A stretch of 58,470 nt of DNA, taken from assembly GCA_015067075.1 (NCBI GenBank), contig SVND01000006.1, positions 1 through 58,470 of the forward strand. The letters are read 5' to 3'. The notes under the pieces were generated by a model. The model had not been told where the DNA came from. It saw only the letters and a program-made list of their open reading frames with translations, and ran no database searches. This DNA is from Oscillospiraceae bacterium. GTDB lineage: Bacteria > Bacillota > Clostridia > Oscillospirales > SIG530. The stretch's first letter is position 1. The number at the start of each line of letters is the position of its first letter. Shown piece by piece: positions 22,119 to 45,961 of the stretch. A program made the translations under genes and the position numbers.

Positions 22119-22829
22119 TTAGCCGCCGAGATACGCTTTGCGTACCATTTCGCTGGCGGCAAGCTCCTGACCTGTACCCGTCAGCACGATATTTCCGTTT
22201 TCCAGCACGTACGCTCTGTCGGATATGGCAAGGGATTTGCCTGCGTTTTGCTCTACCAAAAGAATTGTAGTGCCGTCGCGGTTGATATCCTTGATTATCT
22301 CGAATACCTGATCGACCAGCAGCGGAGACAAGCCCATGGAGGGTTCGTCCAGCATCAAAAGCTTGGGATGGCTCATGATAGCGCGTCCCATTGCCAGCAT
22401 CTGCTGTTCACCGCCCGACAGCGTTCCCGCAATCTGATTTTTACGCTCGTAAAGACGGGGGAATCGTGTGTAGATCGCTTCAAGATCGTTTTTAAAGCCT
22501 GACTTATCCTTTATGGAATAAGCGCCCATAAGCAGATTTTCATAAACGGTCAGCTCCTGGAAAATGCGTCGTCCCTCGGGAACCTGAGTCATGCCGAGAT
22601 GGACTATCTTATGACATGATGTCTTTGTAATATCGTGACCGTCAAAGGTTACCGTTCCCACTTTTTTGGGGATAAGCCCGACTACGCTTTGCATAGTCGT
22701 GGTCTTTCCTGCACCGTTTGCGCCGATAAGAGTAACGATCTCACCCTCGTTTACCTCGAAGCTGATACCTTTCAGGGCACATATGACGCCGTAGTAGACT
22801 TCAAGATTATGTACTTCCAACATTGCCAT
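22119..22829 (-). CDS. livF: Branched-chain amino acid ABC transporter ATPase LivF
   Basis: A 236-residue ABC ATPase. Walker A is GANGAGKTT, the signature is LSGGEQQMLA, and Walker B is LLMLDEPSMGLSP, the LivF form. It pairs with LivG to energise import of Leu/Ile/Val or related amino acids and amides. I start at ATG 22829, with GGAGG nine bases upstream; a GTG at 22838 overlaps the livG stop and is an alternative. It is the last gene of livJHMGF. Confidence 0.93.
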   Translation of the reverse strand: MAMLEVHNLEVYYGVICALKGISFEVNEGEIVTLIGANGAGKTTTMQSVVGLIPKKVGTVTFDGHDITKTSCHKIVHLGMTQVPEGRRIFQELTVYENLLMGAYSIKDKSGFKNDLEAIYTRFPRLYERKNQIAGTLSGGEQQMLAMGRAIMSHPKLLMLDEPSMGLSPLLVDQVFEIIKDINRDGTTILLVEQNAGKSLAISDRAYVLENGNIVLTGTGQELAASEMVRKAYLGG

Positions 22830-22834
22830 ATCAT

Positions 22835-23605
22835 TCACCCTCCAATGTACGCCTTAATGACCTCGGGGTCGTTAAGCGCTGTTTTGGTGTCGCCCTCTGC
22901 CAAAACAGTACCGAAATTCAGTACCGTTATCTCATCGCAAAGTCCCGCAACAAACTTCATATCGTGCTCAATAAGCAGGATAGTCATGTCAAAATTGTCG
23001 CGAATAAAACGAATCGTCTTGACAAGATCCTCAGTTTCATGGGGGTTCATGCCTGCGGCAGGCTCGTCAAGGAGCAAAAGCTTGGGATTTGTAGCCAAAG
23101 CACGGGCAATCTCCAGCTTCCTCTGCTTACCGTACGGTAAATTGCAAGCTAAATTGTTGCGCTCTTGCTCAAGATCAAAGATGCGAAGCAACTCCTTCGC
23201 CCTCTCGCGCATCGCCTTTTCAACCTTGAAATGGCGCGGCAAGCGCAAAAGCGTTTCAAAAACTGTACAGTTATATTCAGGCTGGTTATGCAAACCTACC
23301 ATGACGTTACGAACGACCGTCATATTGTTGAAAAGACGAATATTCTGGAACGTGCGGGCAATGCCTTTATGGTTTATCTTATCCTGAGACAAGCCTTTAA
23401 GCTCCTCACCGTCAAGATAAAACGTACCCGTGGTGGGCTTATAAACGCCTGTCAAAAGATTGAATATGGTTGTCTTACCTGCGCCGTTAGGGCCGATAAG
23501 TCCGTAGATCTGATTTTTCTTGATACGAACGTTTACATCCTGCGCCGCTTTCAAACCGCCGAAGGAGATACCGAGACCTTTTGTTTCCAAAATATATTCA
23601 GCCAT
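22835..23605 (-). CDS. livG: Branched-chain amino acid ABC transporter ATPase LivG
   Basis: A 256-residue ABC ATPase. Walker A is GPNGAGKTT, the signature region is NLPYGKQRKLEIARAL (the degenerate LivG form without SGG), and Walker B is LLLLDEPAAGMNP. The C-terminus ends in the LivG-typical DPEVIKAYIGG. I start at ATG 23605, which overlaps the livM stop by one base. An in-frame upstream extension lies inside livM and has no family similarity. Confidence 0.94.
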   Translation of the reverse strand: MAEYILETKGLGISFGGLKAAQDVNVRIKKNQIYGLIGPNGAGKTTIFNLLTGVYKPTTGTFYLDGEELKGLSQDKINHKGIARTFQNIRLFNNMTVVRNVMVGLHNQPEYNCTVFETLLRLPRHFKVEKAMRERAKELLRIFDLEQERNNLACNLPYGKQRKLEIARALATNPKLLLLDEPAAGMNPHETEDLVKTIRFIRDNFDMTILLIEHDMKFVAGLCDEITVLNFGTVLAEGDTKTALNDPEVIKAYIGG

Positions 23606-24741
23606 TAGACGTCCCCTCCGTTTCCTGTGTTGTCCTTCATTTCGGGAGGTACTACGTCGATGGACAGGACCTCGTTCATCTCGATCTTTGTGGGAACTAC
23701 ATCCCATTTTGCCGCGTCATCTGTAATCACGGATGGATCACTTTTATGGCGCGCAAGCTTTCTCCAAAGAACGCCGAGATTGAATCTTTCGCGGAAGCTC
23801 TTAAGTGCAGGAGCGTTATTATAAATAACGATGACGATCAGAATGAGTGCATAAAGCAAATTCTGAAGTACAGCCAAATCGCCTGTAAGCACCGTTGCAA
23901 GCTTCGTGTTAAGGAAGGTGATGAGCGTTGCTGCGATGATAGCGCCGTTGATGTTACCCATACCGCCGAGAACTACCATAACCAATATCTCGATAGAATA
24001 GTTATATCCGAACTTGGCGCTTTGCACCGTGTAATTACTGAAGCTGTAAAGCACGCCCGCGATACCTGCAAAGGTAGCCGACAGCGTAAACGCCAACAGC
24101 TTATATTTCGTTACGTTGATACCACTTGCTCTGGCGGCAATTTCGTTATCGCGGATAGCAGTAACGGCTCTGCCATGCTTTGAGCGGATGAAGTTTTGCA
24201 CAACGGCAAGCGTGATGAGCACGAGCACGAATGCGACAATAAACAGATATTTTTTGTCGAAGCGCGGAGTGTCCAGACCAAGCGCACCGCCAAAGGTCTC
24301 GTCCGATGTGTTCTGGAACAAGGACTTGACTATCTCGCCGAAGGCGAGCGTTACGATGGCAAGATAGTCACCGCGCAGGCGAAGGGCAGGTATACTTATG
24401 ATAATCCCGCATATTGCGGCAATACCTCCGCCAACAAGCAAAGCAATGACAAAGGTTAAAACGCCGTTACCAAGCATCGGCTCAAGCAAAGCCGCGACCT
24501 TACCTCCAATGTATGCGCCAACGCACATAAAGCCTGCATGGCCGAGTGAAAGCTCTCCGAGAAAGCCTACTACCAAGGACAGCGATACGGCAAGAATAAT
24601 GCTGATAGCTATCTTTTCAAGCAGGAACAAGGTAGAGCTGTCGATACGGCCGCCCGAAAAAGTGATGACCGCAAGGACTATTGTAATAATACCTATTACA
24701 ATATAATTTATGTAATGTCCGAGGTTGAATTTCTTTAACAT
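23605..24741 (-). CDS. livM: Branched-chain amino acid ABC transporter permease LivM
   Basis: A 378-residue permease with about nine transmembrane helices. Family motifs are LSLGHAGFMCVGAY near residue 68, LRLRGDYLAIVTLAFGEI near 121 and RDNEIAARASGINV near 197. After the last helix (about residue 310) there is a cytoplasmic tail of about 65 residues that is charged and unlike the usual short LivM end. Its start overlaps the livH stop by one base (TAATG). Confidence 0.94.
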   Translation of the reverse strand: MLKKFNLGHYINYIVIGIITIVLAVITFSGGRIDSSTLFLLEKIAISIILAVSLSLVVGFLGELSLGHAGFMCVGAYIGGKVAALLEPMLGNGVLTFVIALLVGGGIAAICGIIISIPALRLRGDYLAIVTLAFGEIVKSLFQNTSDETFGGALGLDTPRFDKKYLFIVAFVLVLITLAVVQNFIRSKHGRAVTAIRDNEIAARASGINVTKYKLLAFTLSATFAGIAGVLYSFSNYTVQSAKFGYNYSIEILVMVVLGGMGNINGAIIAATLITFLNTKLATVLTGDLAVLQNLLYALILIVIVIYNNAPALKSFRERFNLGVLWRKLARHKSDPSVITDDAAKWDVVPTKIEMNEVLSIDVVPPEMKDNTGNGGDV

Positions 24742-25613
24742 TATACCTTCTCCCTCCGTTTCTTGCCGAGGAATCCGGTAGGTCTGACAAGCAAAATGAT
24801 TATGAGGATGGAAAATTCAATGGCATCCGTATAAGGCGCGATAGCCGTTATCTTGTAAGAGATGCATTCTACCATACCTAAAAGGATACCGCCGAGCATA
24901 GCACCCGGAATTGAACCGATACCTCCGATAACTGCGGCTGTGAACGCCTTTATACCGGGCATTGCACCGAGCGTTGAGGAAATGCTGGGTGCTTTCAGCA
25001 GGTAAAAAAGACCTGCCAATGCCGCAAGGGCAGAGCCGATGGCAAAGGTAATAGTGATAATACCGTTAACGTTGATACCCATCAGCTGAGCCGCGCCCTT
25101 ATCCTCAGATACGGCGATCATGGCGCGTCCGATACGCGTATACTTGATGAACATCGTCAAAGCAATCATGACGACGACAGTTACACCCAGCGTTACAAGT
25201 GCCGAAACCTGCATATGTACGCCGAAAATAGTAACCGAGCCGAACTCATACACTGTGACCATTTTGTTTGCAGAACCGAAGATTATCTGCGCCAAGCTTT
25301 GAAGCAGATAGCTGACACCGATAGCCGTAATAAGGACAGCCAAAGGCGATGCACCGCGCAGGGGCTTGTACGCTAACTTTTCGATGGTGATACCGAGCAA
25401 TACACATCCGATGATCGCCATTAAAATAGCAAGCCAAGGATTTTTCAGTGCCATGAAAACGTATATGATATAGCCACCGACCATAATAACGTCACCATGG
25501 GCAAAATTCAGCATTTTAGCGATACCGTATACCATGGTGTAGCCCAATGCTATCATAGCATAGATGCCACCAAGGCTCAGACCGTTGATCAATGTTGATA
25601 AAAACAGTTCCAT
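24741..25613 (-). CDS. livH: Branched-chain amino acid ABC transporter permease LivH
   Basis: A 290-residue permease with eight or so transmembrane helices. The start LINGLSLGGIYAMIALGYTMVYG and the motif LNFAHGDVIMVGGY near residue 37 are diagnostic of LivH. The conserved late block GIKAFTAAVIGGIGSIPGAMLGG follows near 222. I start at ATG 25613, preceded by GGAAAG, because the conserved N-terminus begins there. An in-frame extension upstream runs through a hairpin region and is not credible. Confidence 0.94.
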   Translation of the reverse strand: MELFLSTLINGLSLGGIYAMIALGYTMVYGIAKMLNFAHGDVIMVGGYIIYVFMALKNPWLAILMAIIGCVLLGITIEKLAYKPLRGASPLAVLITAIGVSYLLQSLAQIIFGSANKMVTVYEFGSVTIFGVHMQVSALVTLGVTVVVMIALTMFIKYTRIGRAMIAVSEDKGAAQLMGINVNGIITITFAIGSALAALAGLFYLLKAPSISSTLGAMPGIKAFTAAVIGGIGSIPGAMLGGILLGMVECISYKITAIAPYTDAIEFSILIIILLVRPTGFLGKKRREKV

Positions 25614-25669
25614 ATTCTTTCCTAACTTCGGAAAGCCGGGGGTATGCCGACTCTCCGCAATAAAATCAC

Positions 25670-25716
25670 AACTGCATATACCGAAATCTGCCAAGGGCAA
25701 ACCGATATATGCAGTT
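25670..25716 (-). promoter_or_regulatory. Intercistronic hairpin between livJ and livH
   Basis: AACTGCATATA (25670-25680) pairs with TATATGCAGTT (25706-25716) across 25 bases that contain a smaller TGCC/GGCA hairpin. There is no T-run. Such stem-loops after binding-protein genes commonly protect the upstream message and reduce read-through, giving more binding protein than permease. That role is inferred. Confidence 0.5.
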
Positions 25717-25751
25717 ATTCTGTTATAAAATCTTTGTTACGTCAGTTTTGC

Positions 25752-26918
25752 TTAGTTAGCTTCTTTGATAACGTACTGGATAGCACCCTTGTTAACGTAA
25801 CCGCTTGTTTCCCACTTGATGTTCTGACCTGTTACACCGTTTTCAAAAGTGTAACCGCCGCTGAACTGCTCTTTGAGAATTTCGCAAAGGTCGGAAGCAC
25901 TGATAGTTACAGTGATCTCCTTACCTTCATCAACTGCCTTCTTCATTGCGCCGTAGATAGCGTATACGCAGTCGTATGCGGAAGCACCGAACTGGTTAAG
26001 TGTATCTGCGCCAAACTTAGCAACATACTTGTCGATGTATTCCTTAGCTAAACCCTCCGTAGCCTTGGAGCTGAAGTGAGAAAGCATTGTAACCTTCTGA
26101 GGAATTGTGCTGATGTCAAAGCCTTCGATATTGTCGATGCCATCGAAGCCGTCGCATCCGTAGTATACAGCGTCAGCGGCAAGGATGTCCTTTGCCTGTG
26201 TCATGAAAAGGGACGCAGGTGTGTAGTACGTGGGCATAAAGATGAAGCCACAGGACTTGAGAGTGTCTATCTGTGCAGAGAAGTCAGATGCGTTTGCATC
26301 GGTAAAGCTTGTTTCAACAACTGTTACAGAAGAGTCAAGATTTGCCTTGAACTGATCGTAGATGCCCTTGGAGTAAGCTTCGTCGGACTTGTAAACAGCG
26401 CCGATAGTCTGACCCGCATAGTTTGCGTTAACAAACTCCGCCGCAACCTTACCCTGGTTACCGTCAGCGAAGCACATCTGATATCCGTTGTCGTTTGCGG
26501 GGATGTCATCACCGGTGGCAGAGGGTGTAAGGAAAAATACGTTGTCATCAGCGGAAAGGTTCTTGAATTCAAGACCGGGCTGAGTGGTAACAGTACCAAG
26601 AGATACCTGCATACCGCCCTCAAAGAGAGATGAATAGTTGGTGGATATCTTTGTAGCGTCATTCATATCGTCCATAGCAACAAGCTTGAACATAACGCCA
26701 TTGAGACCGCCTGCTGCGTTTATTTCGTCAACAGCCAACTGAGCGGAGTTAGCAACTGCAACACCGTACATTGCGGCGCCGCCTGTGAGAGGGCCTGATA
26801 CGCCGATTACATATTCTGTGTTTTCTGCAGCATAGTTAACTGCTCCTGTGCAGGAAGCGAGGAGTCCAATGCAGAGTACGAGGGACATAACGAGTGCGAG
26901 AACTTTTGTGAATTTCAT
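25752..26918 (-). CDS. livJ: Branched-chain amino acid ABC transporter substrate-binding lipoprotein LivJ-like
   Basis: A 388-residue lipoprotein. The signal peptide ends in the lipobox LLASC, with acylated Cys at about residue 23. The mature protein is a type 1 periplasmic-binding fold with the family opening VIGVSGPLTGGAAMYG and the block VDEINAAGGLNG. Later the family-typical PTYYTPASLF and YDCVYAIYGAMKKA appear. It heads livJHMGF and is separated from livH by a hairpin. The ligand is probably a branched-chain amino acid, but the family also binds other amino acids and amides. Confidence 0.92.
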   Translation of the reverse strand: MKFTKVLALVMSLVLCIGLLASCTGAVNYAAENTEYVIGVSGPLTGGAAMYGVAVANSAQLAVDEINAAGGLNGVMFKLVAMDDMNDATKISTNYSSLFEGGMQVSLGTVTTQPGLEFKNLSADDNVFFLTPSATGDDIPANDNGYQMCFADGNQGKVAAEFVNANYAGQTIGAVYKSDEAYSKGIYDQFKANLDSSVTVVETSFTDANASDFSAQIDTLKSCGFIFMPTYYTPASLFMTQAKDILAADAVYYGCDGFDGIDNIEGFDISTIPQKVTMLSHFSSKATEGLAKEYIDKYVAKFGADTLNQFGASAYDCVYAIYGAMKKAVDEGKEITVTISASDLCEILKEQFSGGYTFENGVTGQNIKWETSGYVNKGAIQYVIKEAN

Positions 26919-29341: not shown

Positions 29342-29370
29342 ATTATATCTAATCTATGCAAAAATGTAAA
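29342..29370 (-). promoter_or_regulatory. Promoter of glycyl radical enzyme gene 1
   Basis: On the minus strand TTTACA (29365-29370) and TATAAT (29342-29347), 17 bp apart. The -35 box is joined one base away to the tandem operator at 29371-29401. It is the same construction as the promoters at 36393 and 36740. Confidence 0.82.
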
Positions 29371-29401
29371 GGGACAAAACTACGAAACAAGCACAAACTC
29401 A
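29371..29401 (-). promoter_or_regulatory. Tandem activator site, glycyl radical enzyme 1
   Basis: Minus strand: distal half TGAGTTTGTGCTTG (rc of 29388-29401) and proximal half TAGTTTTGTCCC (up to 29371). The GTGC and GTCC cores are 19 bp apart and the proximal one ends one base before the -35 box. Direct repeats touching -35 are typical of AraC-family activators. No regulator assignment is possible from the sequence. Confidence 0.65.
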
Positions 29402-29411
29402 CTACAAACAT

Positions 29412-29447
29412 AAAAAAACAGTCGGAAAAATTTCCGACTGTTTTTTT
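29412..29447 (-). terminator. Terminator of glycyl radical enzyme gene 2
   Basis: ACAGTCGGAAA pairs with TTTCCGACTGT almost without a loop, flanked by A and T runs. It lies just past the stop of the gene at 29456 and could work in both directions. Confidence 0.85.
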
Positions 29448-29455
29448 ATCATATA

Positions 29456-31624
29456 TTATTCATGCTCTGTTCTTGCAAGGATATCTTCCTGAACTTCGTG
29501 AGAAAGCTTTACATAGAATGCGGAGAAGCCGGAAACACGAGTCATAAGGCTCTGATAATGTTCGGGGCGTTCCATTGCATCAATAAGCGTTTCACGGGCA
29601 ACACAGTTGATCTGGATCTCCTGACCGCCTCTCTGGAAGTAAACCTGAATGAGGGAAACGAGCTTCTGGAACTCTTCCTCATTTGTGAAGGTGTTGGAGC
29701 TGTAACGCTGGTTGCAAACCGTTCCGCAAGCAGACGTTGTATAATCGGGCTTTGTGAGAGATTTTACAGCAGCCGTCGGGCCGGAGGTATCTCTGCCCTG
29801 TGCGGGAGATGCGGCATCGCTCATGGGAAGCGTTGCGTTTCTGCCGTCAGGTGTTGCACCGAGCTCAAGACCTGCGGGAATATTGCTGATGTTGGAAGCG
29901 ATAGCGATGAATACACGACCGCCGTCGTATGTGCGCTTGTCGTCGAATACCTTGGAGGTATAATCGCAGAACCAAACGGCATACTTGTCGACTTCGTCAA
30001 CGTCGTTACCGTACTTGGGAAGTGAAAGGAGAAGAGCCTGAACGTCTTCGTATCCCTTGAAGTCAGCTTCCAAAGCCTTGATAAGCGTATCCATTGTGAT
30101 AAGCTTTTTGTTGAAAACAACTTCTTCTACAGCGTAGAGGCTGTCTGCAACAGTTGCAATACCCATGTTGCCGGAGCCGTGAGCACCGGGGTAATGAGCA
30201 CCGCCGTTATTGATGTCAAGACCGCGTTCGATGCAGTCGTCCGTAAGAGCGGAAAGGAAGGGAGACGTTGCTTCCTCGGGGTTGGGCTGACGCTGCATAC
30301 CGAGGAGCCAATTCATGTACTGCTCTGCGCCGTAAGCGATCTGCTTTTCAAGTGCGCGCATAAACTCGTCCATAGACTTAAATTCGCGCGGATCGCCTGT
30401 GTCAAGACCGACAGTTTGACCTGTGATAAGGGATCTGCCCTGTGTAAATACGTATTCAAGATAAAGCGGGGTGTTAAATCTTCCGTCGCTCCAAGGAGCC
30501 TGTCTTCCCTGAAGGAAGTTTTCGATACAGCCGACAAAGCAATGGTCGCGGCAATCCTCAATGTCATAACCCATACGTTCAAGAGCGGGGATGTTGACGT
30601 CGTCGTTCATAAGTGCGGGATAGCCGATACCCGTGCCGATTACGCGAAGGCAAGCTTCAAGGAAATCACGGCGCACACTGCCCCATACACGGGCAGAAAG
30701 GTTCGGGCCGGGAATCTTGCATATTCCAACAGCGCGAAGCACGCAGAAAGAAAGATCGTTTACAGCATCGTTGCCCTGTCTGTCGTGACCGCCGATACAA
30801 ATGTTGACCGTGTCGTCGCCGCCGCGAACGTAACGTGCTTCACCTATCTTCATAAATACGTTCTGAAGGAGAAGGCAAGCTTCATCATCTGTCATGATAC
30901 CTTTTTCGATATCATTCTTATAGAAGGGGTACAAATATTGGTCGATACGGCCGAGAGCCATAGCGTCGCGTCCTTCAAGACGGAAGCAAACGTGAGCTGC
31001 CCAAACGAGCTGTAAAGCTTCACGGAACGTGTCGGGCTTTTCATAGGAGACCTTATCGCAAACGCGAGCGATCTCTGTAAGACGTGCGATCTCGTCTGCA
31101 TCCGTTTCATCCTTCATAAGCTCGCGGGCAAGGTCTGCATAGCTCTTGATGAATGCGGCGTAAGCTTCGATCTCGATCTTGACGGACTTAAGAAAGTCGA
31201 TCTTCTTCTGATCGTCAGCGTATTTTGCCATAGACTGCTCAACGTCTGCCAAAAGACCGCAAACGCCTTTTTCGACGAGCTTCTTATAGCCGGGAGCAGC
31301 ATGGTCGTTGTCTGTGCCGAAATGACGGAAGCCTGTGTTTATAAATTTTGCATATGCAGGGTCAAAAAGAGATGTGTCAATATCTGTTCTCTCACTCTTA
31401 AGTCCCCAGATGCCGCAAGGAATAAGATCGCCTTTGTAAATGTGCTTTTCAATATCCTCAAGTAAAGAGCGGAAAGCATATGCTCTCTGGATCGTTACAG
31501 GCTGACCTTCTGCCTCGCCCTGCATAAAGCCGCGATACATATAGTAGAAAAGCATATGATTGCCGGGCTTATACTGACCTACGGGCATTTCTTCTTTCAA
31601 AATATCTGTCATTGTTTTTGCCAT
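29456..31624 (-). CDS. Glycyl radical enzyme of unknown substrate (paralogue 2)
   Basis: A 722-residue glycyl radical enzyme, closely similar to its neighbour over the whole length and nearly identical in the last 170 residues or so, so the pair arose by tandem duplication. Cys366 and Glu368 lie in FVGCIENF, and Gly699 in RVSGFSAF. The paralogues differ most at residues about 60-135, 150-160, 209-221 and 261-275, and again around the linker before 430, which may alter substrate fit. The start is ATG 31624, with GGAGAG eight bases upstream. It has its own terminator and its own promoter with the shared operator, so it is transcribed separately from paralogue 1. Confidence 0.9.
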   Translation of the reverse strand: MAKTMTDILKEEMPVGQYKPGNHMLFYYMYRGFMQGEAEGQPVTIQRAYAFRSLLEDIEKHIYKGDLIPCGIWGLKSERTDIDTSLFDPAYAKFINTGFRHFGTDNDHAAPGYKKLVEKGVCGLLADVEQSMAKYADDQKKIDFLKSVKIEIEAYAAFIKSYADLARELMKDETDADEIARLTEIARVCDKVSYEKPDTFREALQLVWAAHVCFRLEGRDAMALGRIDQYLYPFYKNDIEKGIMTDDEACLLLQNVFMKIGEARYVRGGDDTVNICIGGHDRQGNDAVNDLSFCVLRAVGICKIPGPNLSARVWGSVRRDFLEACLRVIGTGIGYPALMNDDVNIPALERMGYDIEDCRDHCFVGCIENFLQGRQAPWSDGRFNTPLYLEYVFTQGRSLITGQTVGLDTGDPREFKSMDEFMRALEKQIAYGAEQYMNWLLGMQRQPNPEEATSPFLSALTDDCIERGLDINNGGAHYPGAHGSGNMGIATVADSLYAVEEVVFNKKLITMDTLIKALEADFKGYEDVQALLLSLPKYGNDVDEVDKYAVWFCDYTSKVFDDKRTYDGGRVFIAIASNISNIPAGLELGATPDGRNATLPMSDAASPAQGRDTSGPTAAVKSLTKPDYTTSACGTVCNQRYSSNTFTNEEEFQKLVSLIQVYFQRGGQEIQINCVARETLIDAMERPEHYQSLMTRVSGFSAFYVKLSHEVQEDILARTEHE

Positions 31625-31710
31625 AATTAACACTCTCCTTAAAAGGAAAATTAAATATAATCAAAAGGAACGGCTATGGAAATTTTGCGTTACCTTTAGC
31701 TTACGATGAT

Positions 31711-31739
31711 ATTATACTATCTTTTTTCGGATTTGTACA
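31711..31739 (-). promoter_or_regulatory. Promoter of glycyl radical enzyme gene 2
   Basis: On the minus strand TGTACA (31734-31739) and TATAAT (31711-31716) are 17 bp apart. The leader to the ATG is about 80 bases, longer than for paralogue 1. Confidence 0.75.
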
Positions 31740-31740
31740 T

Positions 31741-31772
31741 GCACAAATTCAACAAACAAGCACAAATCTCAT
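31741..31772 (-). promoter_or_regulatory. Tandem activator site, glycyl radical enzyme 2
   Basis: Minus strand: distal half ATGAGATTTGTGCTTG and proximal half TTGAATTTGTGC, with ATTTGTGC repeated exactly at 19-bp spacing. The proximal half ends one base before the TGTACA -35 box, matching the sites at 29371, 36422 and 36708. Confidence 0.7.
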
Positions 31773-31804
31773 ATTATTTTTTAGCTTTTTTAAAAATTTT
31801 TTTT

Positions 31805-31825
31805 GGGCGCACCGTCGGTACGCCC
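31805..31825 (-). terminator. Terminator of the GDPD protein gene
   Basis: GGGCGTACC pairs with GGTGCGCCC (minus strand, one G-T pair) around a three-base loop, eight bases past the stop codon. A-rich and T-rich flanks extend the stem before a T-run. Confidence 0.65.
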
Positions 31826-31832
31826 TCAAAAA

Positions 31833-34661
31833 TCACTTTTTCTTTGATTTTACAACAAGGACAACTACAACTGCAGCAGCAATAACAGCCGCCGCGATAA
31901 CAGCGATAATGATACCGCCCATATCAGAGCCGCCTTCACCGTCGGAGGGAGCTTCGGTCGGAGTATCTTCAGCAGGTACATCCGTGGGTGTATCCTCAGG
32001 AGCTTCAGTAGGTGTATCCTCTGCAGGCGTCTGAGTGGGTGTCGCTGCGGGAGCTTCAGCCGCTGTGAACGTTACGGCAATAGGCTGAGTATAAAGCGTA
32101 TACGGTGTGCCGTCGCCGAGAATGTAAGCTTTTTTCGCCATGATGCTTGCCGTACCTGCCGCTGTAGCGGAAACAACGCCTTCCGCGGAAACAGTAACGC
32201 CTGTGCCGCCGTCGTCAAGCACGATGTACTCGTCAGCCGCAACGTCTTCAACGAGGTTGTCGTATGTAGTTTCGGTTACAACCAGCTGACCGCCCTGTGC
32301 CGCGTCAAAGGAGTATGCCAAAGGTGCAGAAAGGTCGTATACGATAGAGCCGCCCCAATAAGCGTGATCAGTTGTAACGGCTGTAGCGCCGATTGCAATA
32401 AGCTTATAAAAATCTGCGGCAGTATTGACTGTCCACGGCCAAGACGTGATACCTCTGTGGCGAAGTGCGCTGAGAAGGTTGGGACCGAGACCGCCGTAGC
32501 TTGTATTGTGAGTTGCGTTCATGGGACGAAGAGATTTAATGAGGCTCAAAACCGTGGAGCCGACCGTCTGCTCACCTGTAGCAGTGCAAAGGAAACCGCC
32601 TGACATTTCAGGGTAAGTCATGGCAAGGTACTTGAGCTGATTTGAGTTAAAGGAGATAAATACAGCCTGATCCTCCATTTCAAGCTCGCGAAGAAGCTCA
32701 ACCGTAGCATCTATAACAGCAGTTCTGCCGCTCTTTATTTCGATAACGGCAATACCGTTTGTTTCCTTGAGCGCTGTGAGATATTCACGTAATTCGGGAA
32801 TCTTGAGATTCTGATATTCGCTGAAGCTTGATTTAAGATTAAGCTCCTTAAGCTGTTCCAGAGTAGAGCCTTCGATCGGTAAGTTTCTGTCAGCAGTTCT
32901 CGAGGTGTTTCCGTCGTGCATTATAACGACGTAGCCGTCAGTTGTGATGTATATATCGGACTCAACGTGCGTTGCACCCGATTCAACGGCGAGGATAGTT
33001 CCTTCGATGCTGTTTTCGGGAGCGCGGGAGGGCATTCCGCGGTGACCGATAATAAAGCTCTTTCTCACGAAAGTACGCTCATCAAACGTCTTGTAAAGAC
33101 GGAAAAGCTGTTCAACGTCATTTGTCATAATGCCGTTTGCACCGGATGTGATAATAGTATAAGCCTCAACGTCCGTGGGATTTTCCGTTACGAACCAGAC
33201 AGATGTGGCAAGCTTCTGCAAGAAATCAACGTTGTCCTTTGTCGCAAACTTTGCATCAAGGAAAACTATCTTGGACATAGCCGTATTGGATTTTGCGCGG
33301 ATGTCAAGGAGCGTCGCCTCGTCAAGGTCACCTTCTCCCTCAGGCTGTGCAATATAAATACTGCCAACCTCCTGATATTCAAGGCGCATCTGCTGCAAAA
33401 GAGCGTGATCTGTGCTTGCGATGAAGGAGTCGAAAAGACCGCGCTCGTTGATAAAATCAACTGCCGCGTAGCAAGCCGCCTCATCTGTTACACAGAAAAT
33501 GGGGATAACGTAGCCAACGAAGCCGTCGATACCTGCCATAGGGCAGATAACAGCTCCGCTTTCATCCAGCACGTTCATCTCTGCGTCAACGCGGAAAAAC
33601 GCAGATGCGGGAGTTTCATCCTTTTCGAGAGCTTTTATATCATCCATATTGCGGATATTCTTGATGGTTGTGGGTGCAAGAACGATATTGCTTTCAGGCT
33701 CATAGACCTCGGCAACAGGGCTGAATACAACGTCGTCAAGACTGTCAACGATAGCATCGCTTACAACAACGCGGATATTATCGTAATAAGCAAGGCTTCC
33801 GTTTGCCTGCATACCGATATTACCGTTTACGTATTCCGTAAGGTTCGTGGCAATATTACTCTCCTCGCCGTTAATGGTCTGGATAACAAACGCCTGCATA
33901 ACGGAAATGTTGAGCTCATACATTTTTTCGGGATCCATCTTTTCTTCATAGCTGTATGTGGAAACGACGTTCCAGCCGTTTGCACGCTTTGCAAATTCAA
34001 CACCGTTGGAGGCTGTGGCATTTTGACGGATAGCCATCTGATAATAAGTTTCTATACCCTGATAGCGGTACATAAGAGAAGCCCAGCGAGTGCCTTCATT
34101 CGCCATAGCTATGCCGAAATCAACAGTTATATCATAATCGGTAAAAACATTGAGATATTGGGGAAGAATAACGCCTGCCGTACCGCCGAGACCGTTAAGC
34201 ATGAGCTTGCCGCCATCGATCTGAACAGTTTCGGGATCCTCGTTGAAAACGAGCGTGTATCCAAGCTCCTCGGGCAGATCGCCGTCAGCATAACCGTCGA
34301 AGTTTTCTTCATAAATAACGAACTGATCCTCAGATGCTTCCTTGACAAAAAGATACACCGTAAAAGATAAATCATCGGACGACATGTCGATGGCAAAAGT
34401 GCCTTTTTCGGAAGCCGTTATGCCGTCAGCATCAACAGTAACAGCATCATCTGCACAGGAAAAAGTAAAATTCTCCGCATTGATAACGTATTTTTTCACC
34501 TTCACAAAAATATCCGAAAACTCAAGCTTTTCGTTAACGTCGGCAAAAAGCACGTTTTTCTTTTCGGATATGTACGTTACATCATCCTCGGCAGAAACAG
34601 GAACAACTACCATAGAAAAAAGAAGCGCGACAGAAATCAGGAGTGCTAAAATTTTTTTCAT
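31833..34661 (-). CDS. Surface-anchored glycerophosphodiester phosphodiesterase (GDPD) multidomain protein
   Basis: A 942-residue exported protein. Residues 1-24 are a signal peptide. Residues about 110-305 look like a laminin-G/DUF1080-type jelly roll (NFDGYADGDLPEELG onward). Residues about 330-535 resemble a degenerate GDPD barrel. Residues about 537-790 are an intact GDPD domain: GHRGMPSRAPENS, ESDIYITTDG and MHDG give the catalytic His, Arg, Glu, Asp and His. A Big2-like domain follows near 800-885, then a Pro/Thr/Glu stalk, a transmembrane helix and a KSKKK tail. GDPD enzymes cleave glycerophosphodiesters, for instance from lipids or teichoic acid. Its promoter lacks the operator shared by its neighbours. 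Confidence 0.88.
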   Translation of the reverse strand: MKKILALLISVALLFSMVVVPVSAEDDVTYISEKKNVLFADVNEKLEFSDIFVKVKKYVINAENFTFSCADDAVTVDADGITASEKGTFAIDMSSDDLSFTVYLFVKEASEDQFVIYEENFDGYADGDLPEELGYTLVFNEDPETVQIDGGKLMLNGLGGTAGVILPQYLNVFTDYDITVDFGIAMANEGTRWASLMYRYQGIETYYQMAIRQNATASNGVEFAKRANGWNVVSTYSYEEKMDPEKMYELNISVMQAFVIQTINGEESNIATNLTEYVNGNIGMQANGSLAYYDNIRVVVSDAIVDSLDDVVFSPVAEVYEPESNIVLAPTTIKNIRNMDDIKALEKDETPASAFFRVDAEMNVLDESGAVICPMAGIDGFVGYVIPIFCVTDEAACYAAVDFINERGLFDSFIASTDHALLQQMRLEYQEVGSIYIAQPEGEGDLDEATLLDIRAKSNTAMSKIVFLDAKFATKDNVDFLQKLATSVWFVTENPTDVEAYTIITSGANGIMTNDVEQLFRLYKTFDERTFVRKSFIIGHRGMPSRAPENSIEGTILAVESGATHVESDIYITTDGYVVIMHDGNTSRTADRNLPIEGSTLEQLKELNLKSSFSEYQNLKIPELREYLTALKETNGIAVIEIKSGRTAVIDATVELLRELEMEDQAVFISFNSNQLKYLAMTYPEMSGGFLCTATGEQTVGSTVLSLIKSLRPMNATHNTSYGGLGPNLLSALRHRGITSWPWTVNTAADFYKLIAIGATAVTTDHAYWGGSIVYDLSAPLAYSFDAAQGGQLVVTETTYDNLVEDVAADEYIVLDDGGTGVTVSAEGVVSATAAGTASIMAKKAYILGDGTPYTLYTQPIAVTFTAAEAPAATPTQTPAEDTPTEAPEDTPTDVPAEDTPTEAPSDGEGGSDMGGIIIAVIAAAVIAAAVVVVLVVKSKKK

Positions 34662-34706
34662 TTACAAAACCTCCAACGATTTATATAATGTAATATATGT
34701 GTTTTT

Positions 34707-34735
34707 ATTATACCAAAATAAGCATACGCGGTCAA
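34707..34735 (-). promoter_or_regulatory. Promoter of the GDPD protein gene
   Basis: On the minus strand TTGACC (34730-34735) and TATAAT (34707-34712), 17 bp apart, about 45 bases upstream of the ATG. No TTTGTGC half-sites are present. Confidence 0.72.
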
Positions 34736-34886
34736 TATAAAATTTTGTTGCTTTTCTGTAAAATTACTATATATACTCGAAAAATGACGAAAAACTTTTT
34801 AAGGCGGAATTATGCAAGCACTTTTGCTTCGATGGAATATAAGCTGCTTTGAGACAGCAAGCAAGATACAAAATAATGGCGCAATA

Positions 34887-34919
34887 CAAAAAAGAACCCG
34901 TGTGATCATTCACACGGGT
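34887..34919 (-). terminator. Terminator of the solute-binding protein gene
   Basis: On the minus strand ACCCGTGTGA pairs perfectly with TCACACGGGT around a four-base loop, followed by TCTTTTTTG. It starts 14 bases past the stop codon. Confidence 0.9.
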
Positions 34920-34932
34920 CCATCTTTACTTT

Positions 34933-36339
34933 TTAGTTAGCTTCAAGAGCTTCCTCGATGATAGCCTGATATGCAGGATATACTTCTTCAACTACAGTAG
35001 CCCAAGGCTCACCTGTAAGAGGACGGAAGTACATATCGCCAAGTAATGTGGAGATTCTGAATGTGCTTGCCCATACATGTACGGGATAATATTCTTCAGC
35101 ATAGATGGTGTTGAGCTTATCTTCAAGAGCAACTGTCCAGCCTGTCTTTTCGATCTGCTCCTCGATAGTCAAAGCTTCAAGCTCCGCTCTCTTTTCAGGA
35201 TCGTTCGCATTTGCGATCTTCATGAACTTCTGGCTTGTTACGTATGCAGCAGCGCCCCAAGGATTCTTTGCATTGGAGGGAAGAGACATACCGCCAAAGG
35301 TTTCTTCTATGTAATACTTGTCAGCCTGAGGATCACGGGGAGTGGGAACGAGACCGAGAGCATCTCTCTTAATAAGGTCATGGCAGCTGATTCTGTACCA
35401 AACAGGTGCCTGCATCATAGCGATGGAGCCCTGACCGAAGGGTGTACGGTTGTCTCCTGCATAGGAAACGCCGTCCATATTGACGATATCAACGAACTTA
35501 TTGATACCTCTTGCGACGTTTTCGCTGCGCATATTGTTGATTACGTTGTCTCCGTCAACGATAACAAATTCTTCACCTGTTGTGAAAGCAAGGAATTCGG
35601 GGTTATCAACGGAAAGACCGTATATTTCGGGGATACCGTCAGCGTCGCTGTCAACAGTAAGCTGCGGTACGAGCTCTGTGAACGTATCCCAATTCCAGTT
35701 GCCTTCTTCAAGGTATTCGTCGGGAGTCTTAACGCCGAGCTCTTCAAATATTTCCTTATTGTAGAAGATCATGTAACTGCCGCGGCTGGGAGAGACTGCC
35801 ATACCGTAAAGTCCGCCTTTGAAAAGGGACTCCTCGATGGAGGTGCGGATATCAGCCCAAAGGTCGAGCTCTGTATCAATGTAATCGAGCCAGTTAGAAA
35901 GATAGCCCTTGTTTACAAGGTTTGTTTCGTAGTTAAACAAACATACGTCGGGTGAATCATCTGCCATATAAAGAGCAATAAACTTTGTGATGCAATCTGT
36001 TGCAGAAGCGATAGTCGTCTTATACTGGAGCTCATATGCATCATAGAAAGGATCAAATGTGTCGAAGTCCTCACGAATTATTTCGCTGTTTGCCATAACA
36101 ACGACTTCTTTGGATGTAAATTCAAACTTCGGAAGTCTGTATTCCATGCCGCCTGTTGCACCGGGAAGGTTAAGATACTTGCCACCTTCGGAATAGTCTA
36201 TTTCATCTGTTCCTGTAGGTTCTGCTGACGGTGTGGGTGTTGCATCATCGTCGCCGGACTGATTGTTTCCGCATGCAATGAAAGTAAATGCCATTACAAA
36301 CGCAAGAATGAGTGCCAAAATTGATCTGAGTTTTTTCAT
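34933..36339 (-). CDS. Extracellular solute-binding lipoprotein, family 1 (carbohydrate ABC transporter type)
   Basis: A 468-residue lipoprotein. The signal peptide ends in a lipobox with acylated Cys at about residue 23 (TFIAC). A Thr/Pro/Ser linker follows, then a two-lobed binding fold with the family block GSYMIFYNKEIFEELG near 200 and the Trp-rich GNWNWDTFTELV near 225. Such proteins capture sugars or oligosaccharides. The partner permeases and ATPase are not in the window, so it is an orphan here. The promoter has the shared tandem operator, and the divergent gene is an esterase-like hydrolase under the same operator. Confidence 0.88.
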   Translation of the reverse strand: MKKLRSILALILAFVMAFTFIACGNNQSGDDDATPTPSAEPTGTDEIDYSEGGKYLNLPGATGGMEYRLPKFEFTSKEVVVMANSEIIREDFDTFDPFYDAYELQYKTTIASATDCITKFIALYMADDSPDVCLFNYETNLVNKGYLSNWLDYIDTELDLWADIRTSIEESLFKGGLYGMAVSPSRGSYMIFYNKEIFEELGVKTPDEYLEEGNWNWDTFTELVPQLTVDSDADGIPEIYGLSVDNPEFLAFTTGEEFVIVDGDNVINNMRSENVARGINKFVDIVNMDGVSYAGDNRTPFGQGSIAMMQAPVWYRISCHDLIKRDALGLVPTPRDPQADKYYIEETFGGMSLPSNAKNPWGAAAYVTSQKFMKIANANDPEKRAELEALTIEEQIEKTGWTVALEDKLNTIYAEEYYPVHVWASTFRISTLLGDMYFRPLTGEPWATVVEEVYPAYQAIIEEALEAN

Positions 36340-36392
36340 TTTCTCATACCCTTTCTTAGGTTTTTTCAGGCTTTTCGCCCGTTACGTTTTTC

Positions 36393-36421
36393 ATTATAAA
36401 GCAAATTTCATTTTTTGTAAA
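36393..36421 (-). promoter_or_regulatory. Promoter of the solute-binding lipoprotein gene
   Basis: On the minus strand TTTACA (36416-36421) and TATAAT (36393-36398), 17 bp apart, the same construction as at 29342. Confidence 0.82.
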
Positions 36422-36452
36422 TGGACAAATCTCATACACAAGCACAATTCTA
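36422..36452 (-). promoter_or_regulatory. Tandem activator site, solute-binding lipoprotein
   Basis: Minus strand: distal half TAGAATTGTGCTTG and proximal half GAGATTTGTCCA, cores 19 bp apart, one base from the -35 box. A stretch of 25 bases of this site recurs in inverted orientation at 36714-36738, upstream of the divergent esterase. Confidence 0.72.
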
Positions 36453-36707
36453 CTCTAATTTTAGGCTTTTTCCCGATTTTTTTAAAATTTTTTTTGCCAA
36501 AAGGCTTGTTTTTGCATTTCAATCCCTTTTCACCCGTTACAACGCCGCAAAAAACAGCGGATGAAAATTTTCGCTTCGCAACAGCGATTTTTGCTGACAA
36601 AACAGCCGTAAACCTTGCCGTATTTGTAGATACAGGCATCCTCGACTGTCCAAAAAAGCAAATCCGCTGACGAAGATCATATTTCACCTTCATCACCGTA
36701 AAAAATG
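36453..36707. other. Intergenic region between the two inverted activator sites
   Basis: About 255 bases with no supported gene. It is AT-rich, with a CTGACAAAACAGCCGTAAA block (36594-36612) that resembles part of the long repeat at the left edge (about 953-971). A short open frame on either strand looks random. Confidence 0.6.
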
Positions 36708-36739
36708 TGAGTTTTGTGCTTGTGTATGAGATTTGTCCC
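36708..36739 (+). promoter_or_regulatory. Tandem activator site, esterase gene
   Basis: Distal half GAGTTTTGTGCTTG and proximal half TGAGATTTGTCCC, cores 19 bp apart, one base upstream of the TTTACA -35 box. It is nearly identical to the site at 36422-36452 in reverse. Confidence 0.75.
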
Positions 36740-36768
36740 TTTACACATCACATGGTATGTTATATAAT
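36740..36768 (+). promoter_or_regulatory. Promoter of the esterase gene
   Basis: TTTACA (36740-36745) and TATAAT (36763-36768), 17 bp apart, about 35 bases upstream of the ATG at 36803. Confidence 0.82.
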
Positions 36769-42800: not shown

Positions 42801-45083
42801 TCAGTATATCATTCTTTCAAGCACTTCTTTTTTGTGCATATCGGGCAAGTCTATAAATCTTGCCGACCAACCGCCGACACGCACGATAATGTGAGAATAC
42901 TTTCCAGGCTCAACCATAGCTTTTTCAAGGTCACCTTTATTTACAACAGTTATGTTAAGCTGTGCTCCGCCCTTTTTCCAGAACGTCTCAAGAATTTTTT
43001 CAAGAAGATCTCTGTGCTCCTTGAAAAACTCCGACGACAGCTTAAGATTCGTAATATTACCGCCGTTTTCCGAGCTCACCTTCGCAACGGAGCTAAAAAG
43101 CGCCGTAAGACCCTGCTTATCGTTGCCTGCCGTGGGAGAATTTCCGACGGCAAACGCCGTTGCATTTTTTCTGCCGTCAGGCGTTGCACCGCATACGGGA
43201 CCGTGCTCAATACCGCCAGGGTTTACGCTACTTATGAAGAAAAAGTCAAGTCCTGCTTCCTTGCCCGCTCTGTTTGCTTCCTTATTCGTAAAATCGGAAA
43301 GGTCAGCTACTATCTCGTCAACCTCCTTGCAGTCGTTTCCGTACTTAGGAAGTGACCGCATCATAGCAAGCTCAGCTTCGTAGCCTTCATAATTTGCATC
43401 GAGAATATGCACAAGCTGCTCAAGCGTCAGCTTTTTATCCTCATATACAAGCTTTTTGATTGCATAAAAGCTGTCCGCAGTATTTGTCAATCCGAAGCCC
43501 TCCGTACAGCCGCCCATATAGCGCAATCCACCGTTTACAAGGCTTTTACCCTTTTCTATGCAATCGTCAAGCAATATTGACGGGTACAAAAAAGCACACT
43601 GTGTCCGTTCCGCTTCATATTCCTTTACATGTACGTCTGCGGCAACGCGTATAAGGAAGGAATAGGCCTTTTTATAGGCGTTATAAAGACTTTCAAACGT
43701 GTCAAAATCGGAAAGCTTGCCCATGCTCGGCGCTATCTGCGCGCCCGTCTTCGCGTCGCAACCCTCGTGCAACAACGCCTCCAACAGCTTCGGCAAAATA
43801 AACGCCGTATTCGGAGAAGCAATAGCAACCTTCGACAGATTCATTTCTCCGCAGCCAAGTGGCAAATAATGTATGGCATCCTCAAAAGGAATGTCAAGCA
43901 GCTTTGACAAGCCCTTTACATACATATCGTCATTATATAAAAGCGGATACAAGCATCCCTCGCCTATGCAGTCGAGAGCCTTTTCCATAAGAAGCGGATT
44001 TTGTCCCTCATAAAAGCGAAGTGTAAGCGTCGGCAGTATGCGCTTATATCTACGTGTCGTTTCTATTGCCGCCAGCGCAAATCTATCGCATTGCTCCTCG
44101 TTTTCTCTGCCCATACCGCCGATGAAAATACGACCGTCGGAGCTGATTATAGTTTCATCAATAAGATTCCAAAGGGAAGTCAGTATGCGTATGGCTTCCT
44201 CCTCCGTAAGTCTTCCGCTGTCGATGTCATTGCAGTAAAATTCGCTGAGGTATGTGTCCATTCTCGTAAAGCTTCCAACGCTGGACACCACGTTGTATAT
44301 CCATACAAGCTGAATAGCCTCCTTCATTGTTTCAGGCTTTTCATGAGCAATTTTTTCAAGTATTTTTGCCATATCATAAAGGTCACCGCGCCACACGTCA
44401 TTATCGGTGGTCTTTGCTTTTTCAATTGCCATATCGCGGTAGTAAAAGCAAACATCCGTCAGCGTATCAAGGGCAGAGATCATACCTGCATAAAACTCGT
44501 CATCCTTGCCCTTTCCCATTTCCGCGCGTATCATATCACGCAAGCCGTCAAGACCGTTTCGCACAAGCTTGCGATAATCCAGCATAATACCACCAATACG
44601 TATGCATTGACCGCGCACAACGTAACCTTTGCCGTCGCCCCATTTTCCGCGCGGCTCAATATAGCTTGCGTTTTCATATTCGTCTATCAGCTTTCTCGTG
44701 CGATCAAAGGTACATTCACCGCGCCAAAAATCCAAAAGCCATTGCATATCATCCTTAAGCTCCTCGTCGCTGTCGCGAATGGTGCGAAGCAAAAAGGGAT
44801 TTATACAGTAGCCGCTTTGCTGGAATTTGTAATCGTCAAAGCTTTCCATGTCAGCCGTGGGGCTGCCGAAGTCAAAGCCTTGAGGAGAGCTACGCACAAC
44901 GTAGCCGTGCATATCAAATCTTCCCGCAAAAATATCGCCTTCTTTTATATCGTCAAGCAGTACGGGCCATTGCTTACCAAGACATTCCGCCTCGCGCACG
45001 GCAATATGCTTGTCACGGTTTTCAATATATGTTTTAGTAAATTCAATACCTGCTTTTGCTATTTTTCTGTTTCGTGCGTCCAT
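42801..45083 (-). CDS. Glycyl radical enzyme of unknown substrate (third, divergent type)
   Basis: A 760-residue glycyl radical enzyme, only distantly similar to the pair at 27138-31624. The thiyl cysteine is Cys411 in LPLGCGEMN, with Glu413, again Cys-x-Glu. The glycyl motif is RVGGWSARF with Gly738, where Trp replaces the usual Tyr. The N-terminal 250 residues follow the PFL-like barrel start. The start is ATG 45083, with GGAG nearby. It is transcribed away from an AraC regulator at 45227, which most likely controls it. No activase is adjacent, so it must use one encoded elsewhere. The substrate cannot be named. Confidence 0.88.
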   Translation of the reverse strand: MDARNRKIAKAGIEFTKTYIENRDKHIAVREAECLGKQWPVLLDDIKEGDIFAGRFDMHGYVVRSSPQGFDFGSPTADMESFDDYKFQQSGYCINPFLLRTIRDSDEELKDDMQWLLDFWRGECTFDRTRKLIDEYENASYIEPRGKWGDGKGYVVRGQCIRIGGIMLDYRKLVRNGLDGLRDMIRAEMGKGKDDEFYAGMISALDTLTDVCFYYRDMAIEKAKTTDNDVWRGDLYDMAKILEKIAHEKPETMKEAIQLVWIYNVVSSVGSFTRMDTYLSEFYCNDIDSGRLTEEEAIRILTSLWNLIDETIISSDGRIFIGGMGRENEEQCDRFALAAIETTRRYKRILPTLTLRFYEGQNPLLMEKALDCIGEGCLYPLLYNDDMYVKGLSKLLDIPFEDAIHYLPLGCGEMNLSKVAIASPNTAFILPKLLEALLHEGCDAKTGAQIAPSMGKLSDFDTFESLYNAYKKAYSFLIRVAADVHVKEYEAERTQCAFLYPSILLDDCIEKGKSLVNGGLRYMGGCTEGFGLTNTADSFYAIKKLVYEDKKLTLEQLVHILDANYEGYEAELAMMRSLPKYGNDCKEVDEIVADLSDFTNKEANRAGKEAGLDFFFISSVNPGGIEHGPVCGATPDGRKNATAFAVGNSPTAGNDKQGLTALFSSVAKVSSENGGNITNLKLSSEFFKEHRDLLEKILETFWKKGGAQLNITVVNKGDLEKAMVEPGKYSHIIVRVGGWSARFIDLPDMHKKEVLERMIY

Positions 45084-45226: not shown

Positions 45227-45961
45227 ATGGTATTCGAGTACGGAATAGGCACAACTATGCCAAATTGGTTTGTAAAAGAAGACAAAGCTCCCGGTTATAC
45301 AAGAATTTATTATGTATACAGCGGCTCCGCCATTTACTCCGACGGTGAAAGTACAGTCGCACTGCAGGAAGGAAAACTGTACGTTTTTCCTACTACCTTC
45401 CCTTATTCAATTGATTACGATTCAAAAGCTCCCCTTCGTTGCCTTTTTGTACATATCAGACCGCCTTCCTCCTGCGTTCCAAACCTTTTTTGCTTCGATA
45501 TTTCCGAAAACAAGGTTCTCAAGCACTGCGTTGAACTTTTTGAATTATCCATCGCCAACGAAAATCAAGATATGTTAAATTGTACCGCCGAGCTTTTTTG
45601 CATATACGGCAGACAAAATCATATCATAGAAACTGTCGGCGCATCCTTTGCAAAGGTGCTTGAATATATAGATAATAACTTGGAAAACGATATCCGCGTT
45701 GAATATCTGGCAAAGCTTGCGGGATACAACCGTCAGTATTTTATTCGCCTTTTCAATCAACATATGGGTGTAACGCCTCATCAGTATATAATGAATCAGC
45801 GGTTTAAAACCGCCGTTAAACTCATCCTTTCCAATACAAGCATCACCGCCGTGTCTCTTGCTTGCGGCTATAAGGATCTTAAAACCTTCAGTCGCGCATT
45901 TAAGGAAAGATACGGACTTTCTCCTAATGAATGGAAAAAACAATACCAGCCCACGCCATAA
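45227..45961 (+). CDS. AraC family transcriptional regulator
   Basis: A 244-residue regulator. Residues about 1-95 form a cupin-like sensing domain (RIYYVYSGSAIYSDGE). Residues about 140-243 are the two helix-turn-helix DNA-binding domain, with YLAKLAGYNRQYFIRLFNQHMGVTPHQYI and the family signature ACGYKDLKTFSRAFKERYGLSPNEWKK. It is divergent from glycyl radical enzyme 3 with 143 bases between, the usual arrangement for a local activator. It could also be the protein that reads the tandem sites at 29371, 31741, 36422 and 36708, but nothing in the sequence proves this. Confidence 0.9.
   Translation: MVFEYGIGTTMPNWFVKEDKAPGYTRIYYVYSGSAIYSDGESTVALQEGKLYVFPTTFPYSIDYDSKAPLRCLFVHIRPPSSCVPNLFCFDISENKVLKHCVELFELSIANENQDMLNCTAELFCIYGRQNHIIETVGASFAKVLEYIDNNLENDIRVEYLAKLAGYNRQYFIRLFNQHMGVTPHQYIMNQRFKTAVKLILSNTSITAVSLACGYKDLKTFSRAFKERYGLSPNEWKKQYQPTP

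Follow-up and report, generated by a model that had tools for sequence, protein, structure and literature searches.

Introduction

Class II activators of the AraC/XylS family (AraC at araI1-I2, XylS at Pm, MekR, MtlR) act on two direct half-sites upstream of a sigma-70-type promoter, with the inner half-site placed at the −35 box, and serve sugar or carbon-source genes. The repeats of the AraC family normally have a period of 21–22 bp (PMC4514859, PMC3870299). In Caldicellulosiruptor, AraC-type activators of carbohydrate genes use tandem direct repeats upstream of promoters; in C. bescii, likewise a Gram-positive-type anaerobe, these repeats are widely spaced, belong to AraC or AraC-type two-component activators that are mostly local to one or few loci, and serve polysaccharide-use genes (PMC8579813). 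The AraC-family rhamnose regulons of Bacillales, Bacteroides and Enterococcus join several operons through a lineage-specific direct repeat, with 21-bp periodicity, a known sugar and the regulator beside its targets (PMC3870299).

The operator described here was found in a 58,470-nt stretch of DNA, the whole of which was analysed and is called the window below. It shares with the class II systems the paired direct half-sites, their position at the promoter and the sugar-type targets, with C. bescii the wide tandem spacing, and with the rhamnose regulons the lineage-specific, multi-operon repeat. Unlike in the class II systems, its period is mainly 19 bp (18–21 bp), the half-site (TTTGTGC) is unrelated and the putative regulator lies away from most targets; unlike in C. 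bescii, at least 15 scattered units carry it.

Results and discussion

The tandem operator and its promoters in the window

Pattern search over the whole window located four copies of the tandem operator TTTGTGCTTGTKT-N6-TTTGTSC, each with a core-to-core distance of 19 bp (Table 1), against 0.00 expected from 100 dinucleotide shuffles; even when 3 mismatches were allowed, the whole window contained no fifth copy. Each proximal core is followed by one base, a −35 box (TTTACA or TGTACA), 17 bp and TATAAT, exactly as the preliminary description had it. The same description gave the distal core as TTTGTGC throughout, which is correct for three sites, whereas the lipoprotein site reads ATTGTGC; it also named 7-bp cores, and these are present, but the conserved block is longer and comprises TTTGTGCTTGTKT. 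The intervening GDPD gene, said to lack the sites, carries no operator and has a promoter of its own, so that it serves as internal negative control. Hairpin terminators follow the gene of glycyl radical enzyme 2 (GRE2) and the lipoprotein gene, in support of separate transcription units.

Both glycyl radical enzymes are PFL-like with a glycine-radical domain and score far under all NCBIfam cut-offs; among solved structures, B12-independent glycerol dehydratase comes nearest. The GDPD protein is secreted, and its N-terminal half weakly matches a 3-keto-disaccharide hydrolase-like family. Directly downstream of GRE1, branched-chain-amino-acid-type ABC transporter genes (22119–26918) have their own promoter-like site. 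A third, more distant glycyl radical enzyme (42801–45083) is divergent from an AraC gene (45227–45961) and has no operator.

Table 1 Features of the window (contig C12) and operator sites in the remainder of the genome; site sequences are given on their own strand
Feature	Contig	Position	Strand	Remark
Glycyl radical enzyme 1 (GRE1)	C12	27138–29330	−	PFL-like + Gly_radical; below every NCBIfam cut-off
GRE1 promoter	C12	29342–29370	−	TTTACA-17-TATAAT
GRE1 operator site	C12	29365–29397	−	TTTGTGCTTGTTTCGTAGTTTTGTCCCTTTACA, then 17 bases + TATAAT
GRE1 proximal core	C12	29372–29378	−	TTTGTCC
GRE1 distal core	C12	29391–29397	−	TTTGTGC
Terminator hairpin after GRE2	C12	29410–29449	−	between the two GRE units
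Glycyl radical enzyme 2 (GRE2)	C12	29456–31633	−	
GRE2 promoter	C12	31711–31739	−	TGTACA-17-TATAAT
GRE2 operator site	C12	31734–31766	−	TTTGTGCTTGTTTGTTGAATTTGTGCATGTACA, then 17 bases + TATAAT
GRE2 proximal core	C12	31741–31747	−	TTTGTGC
GRE2 distal core	C12	31760–31766	−	TTTGTGC
GDPD gene promoter	C12	34707–34735	−	TTGACC-17-TATAAT; operator-free; gene 31833–34661
Terminator hairpin 3' of lipoprotein gene	C12	34894–34921	−	
Orphan sugar-type solute-binding lipoprotein	C12	34933–36339	−	one of ~25 genomic paralogues
Lipoprotein gene promoter	C12	36393–36421	−	TTTACA-17-TATAAT
Lipoprotein operator site	C12	36416–36448	−	ATTGTGCTTGTGTATGAGATTTGTCCATTTACA, then 17 bases + TATAAT
Lipoprotein proximal core	C12	36423–36429	−	TTTGTCC
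Lipoprotein distal core	C12	36442–36448	−	ATTGTGC
Esterase distal core	C12	36713–36719	+	TTTGTGC
Esterase operator site	C12	36713–36745	+	TTTGTGCTTGTGTATGAGATTTGTCCCTTTACA, then 17 bases + TATAAT
Esterase proximal core	C12	36732–36738	+	TTTGTCC
Esterase gene promoter	C12	36740–36768	+	TTTACA-17-TATAAT
Alpha/beta-hydrolase esterase	C12	36803–37591	+	
Operator site	C39	36090		19 bp
Operator site	C75	2682		19 bp
Operator site	C82	10521		19 bp
Operator site	C51	28562		19 bp
Operator site	C52	3684		19 bp
Operator site	C64	7121		19 bp
Operator site	C67	3968		19 bp
Operator site	C77	6777		19 bp
Operator site	C31	45071		20 bp
Operator site	C30	4265		20 bp
Operator site	C69	74131		18 bp
Operator site	C25	32746		21 bp

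Copies of the operator in the genome

The draft genome to which the window belongs comprises 2.26 Mb in 85 contigs and is 96% complete. Searched in full with up to 3 mismatches, it gave 17 matches to the operator pattern and 1 to the reversed pattern. When the core spacing was left free between 4 and 32 bp, 19 bp dominated, with promoter-placed copies also at 18, 20, 20 and 21 bp, and the genome total came to 16 sites (12 at 19 bp and four at 18–21 bp). At 15 of these 16, a −10 box with at least 5/6 matches lies 30–32 bp, and a start codon accompanied by a ribosome-binding site 66–123 bp, downstream of the first base of the proximal core. The geometry that had been called rigid is so in the four copies of the window, but across the genome core spacing and −10 offset vary within these limits; the core spacing is preferred, not rigid.

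Under a weight matrix built from 11 sites, members scored 31.5–41.5 bits when each was left out in turn; the reversed-sequence control never exceeded 18 bits in 326 kb of genome, and the best forward non-member reached 20.4 bits in the stretches read, genome-wide near misses included. High scorers of the genome scan sat at promoters, and random scatter was not seen; the refuting outcome named in the preliminary description, similar scores at random places, thus did not occur. The shared operator most likely joins at least 15 separate transcription units genome-wide. The proposal that one activator co-controls a pathway made of separate units is thereby upheld as to shared control, but not as to a single pathway of four promoters.

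Several further repeats were recorded. At C77:6777–6803, a perfect copy separates ftsH from the gene of a DHHW protein, and neither a promoter nor a gene follows in its direction; RNA families detected in C77 and in the window were T-box and tRNA only. Weaker copies in reverse orientation occur upstream of a lipoprotein gene (C84:8955–8981), where the half-sites number three (AACAAGCACA) and a promoter with consensus TTGACA follows, and upstream of a secreted-protein gene (C24:4015–4041). These two copies and that of C77 speak against the activator reading. An identical 38-base stretch at C7:16, C18:7619, C74:45 and C74:14826, mostly contig ends, is probably a repeated element that broke the assembly.

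Conservation and the sign of control

Numbered from the proximal core, the near-invariant positions are −19 to −7 (TTTGTGCTTGTTT) and 0 to +8 (TTTGTSCnT). The operator carries about 1.6 bits per position, whereas the stretch from −35 to −10 lacks such conservation; this indicates a binding site under selection rather than promoter copying. That gene duplication recently multiplied these promoters, without any shared control today, is therefore very improbable: several targets are indeed paralogous, namely lipoproteins and CBM/SLH proteins, and certain 5' leaders resemble one another, but the operator is common to unrelated genes (GREs, esterase, lipoprotein), it has stayed constant where the spacers diverged, and the other readable paralogous lipoprotein genes do without it, as detailed below.

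Six promoters (C39, C75, C82, C51, C64, C67) match the −35 consensus at only 2–3 of 6 positions, and near-absent −35 boxes fit an activator that replaces −35 contacts. Good −35 and −10 boxes are present in the window promoters and in C30, C31 and C52. These might fire unaided and, together with the abutment of the proximal half-site on the −35 box, would suit repressor operators, whose bound factor keeps RNA polymerase off the −35 box. We consider repression improbable, since the site lies mostly upstream of the −35 box rather than in the interval from there to +1, and since the six promoters keep the operator despite their poor −35 boxes, which suits activation.

Content of the regulon

Five of the first genes encode orphan sugar-type solute-binding lipoproteins (window, C75, C52, C64, C25), and the nearest solved relatives include an arabino-oligosaccharide-binding protein. 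The family has about 25 members in the genome; beyond these five genes, no forward operator was found among the other paralogues with readable upstream DNA, in a survey in which automatic start choice or gene finding failed for a few paralogues. The targets in C39 and C51 are secreted proteins with CBM_4_9 and SLH domains, to which the C82 target, cut by the contig end, is related. The C67 target, large and likewise secreted, carries a GH42-type domain, and those in C30, C31 and C69 are lipoproteins of about 800–870 residues, the one scanned being without Pfam match. GRE1, GRE2 and the esterase complete the first genes. Judged by these domains, the theme of the regulon would be cell-surface carbohydrate capture together with two GREs.

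The candidate regulator

As in AraC/XylS class II operators, each site pairs two half-sites in direct repeat, and its inner half-site abuts or overlaps −35; the regulator probably belongs to the AraC family. The modal period of 19 bp departs from the 21–22 bp typical of AraC. This difference, and an AraC regulator gene that is only a candidate, would speak for an activator of another family on direct repeats (an OmpR/PhoB-type response regulator, DeoR-type, LytTR or other), which appears unlikely overall. PhoB-type repeats have a period of about 11 bp, against 18–21 bp here. For LytTR (PF04397) no match was obtained in the 96% complete genome, in which control profiles matched. DeoR operators show 10–11 bp periodicity (PMC3870299), again against 18–21 bp.

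The genome holds 28 AraC-type genes, two of which adjoin sites: C52:4034–4891, divergent from its target with a strong site in between, and C64:6241–7050, which lies upstream in the same direction. Two such neighbours, compared with about 0.4 expected by a rough estimate, are little above chance with 28 genes. The two proteins are unlike in their DNA-binding domains (26% identity). Among the AraC genes tested, that of C52 was the only one to exceed 9 bits at its own promoter, the best operator-like 30-mer scoring 9.4 bits, which is near background, and the next gene 5.9 bits; a TATAAT lies 29 bases past the proximal core of this weak self-site. The C52 subfamily numbers seven genes, and across 117 genomes of the order just one relative, of 27% identity, was found; the subfamily is thus lineage-restricted like the operator, which favours C52 as the regulator. 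The C64 protein has relatives in 67 of the 117 genomes at a looser cut-off and in about three near the cut-off used for C52, so the contrast is weak. It was rejected as the regulator, although it adjoins a site, being unlike the C52 protein and having widespread relatives at the looser cut-off. The AraC gene of the window at 45227 was likewise rejected, as its own promoter is without a site (best 2.8 bits). The C52 AraC gene or a near paralogue is the likeliest candidate, though a tentative one.

Two adjacent AraC genes at C33:6700–8300 are close paralogues of the C52 gene (50–53% identity). A second operator, ATTTCGTATT repeated at 21 bp upstream of TATAAT, was noticed beside the C39 AraC gene (reverse strand) and before the lipoprotein gene C67:92247, and is probably that of another AraC regulon; it keeps the usual AraC period, from which most copies of the present operator depart.

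Distribution in other genomes

Exact scanning for the operator in about 85,000 genomes gave 25 matches, at most 2 per genome and nearly all inside long open frames; they were rejected as chance. Outside the window's genome, the 394 genomes searched from this order yielded nothing but isolated matches with 2 mismatches, and the set compared contains no other member of the host family. The operator is private to its lineage in the sense of beyond near kin, since the window's own genome and those closest to it may be missing from the collection of about 85,000. A literature search for the core sequence found no relevant report. The kind of switch is known; the regulon itself is new and lineage-specific.

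Proposed mechanism and implications

The sites probably form the tandem operator of a single class II, AraC-type activator that co-activates at least 15 units; activation itself, like the AraC family membership, is what we infer. The activator would bind the two direct half-sites as a dimer or as two monomers, occupy the inner one at or over the −35 box and contact RNA polymerase in the manner of class II AraC proteins. Lipoproteins, CBM/SLH surface proteins, secreted glycosidase-like proteins, two GREs and the esterase would thereby be switched on together.

For an uncultured bacterium, a predicted regulon of this kind offers the co-regulated genes as clues to the GRE substrate. It also exemplifies a tandem operator whose period departs from 21 bp, and demonstrates that geometry alone suffices to recover a lineage-specific operator from a single genome. 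A further reading, which we regard as speculative, is that the lineage-private expansion of seven AraC genes, with its 19-bp-period operator, supplies a master activator for a programme of surface glycan capture that is dispersed over the genome and includes the two GREs. Were this true, the GREs would act on a product of that glycan.
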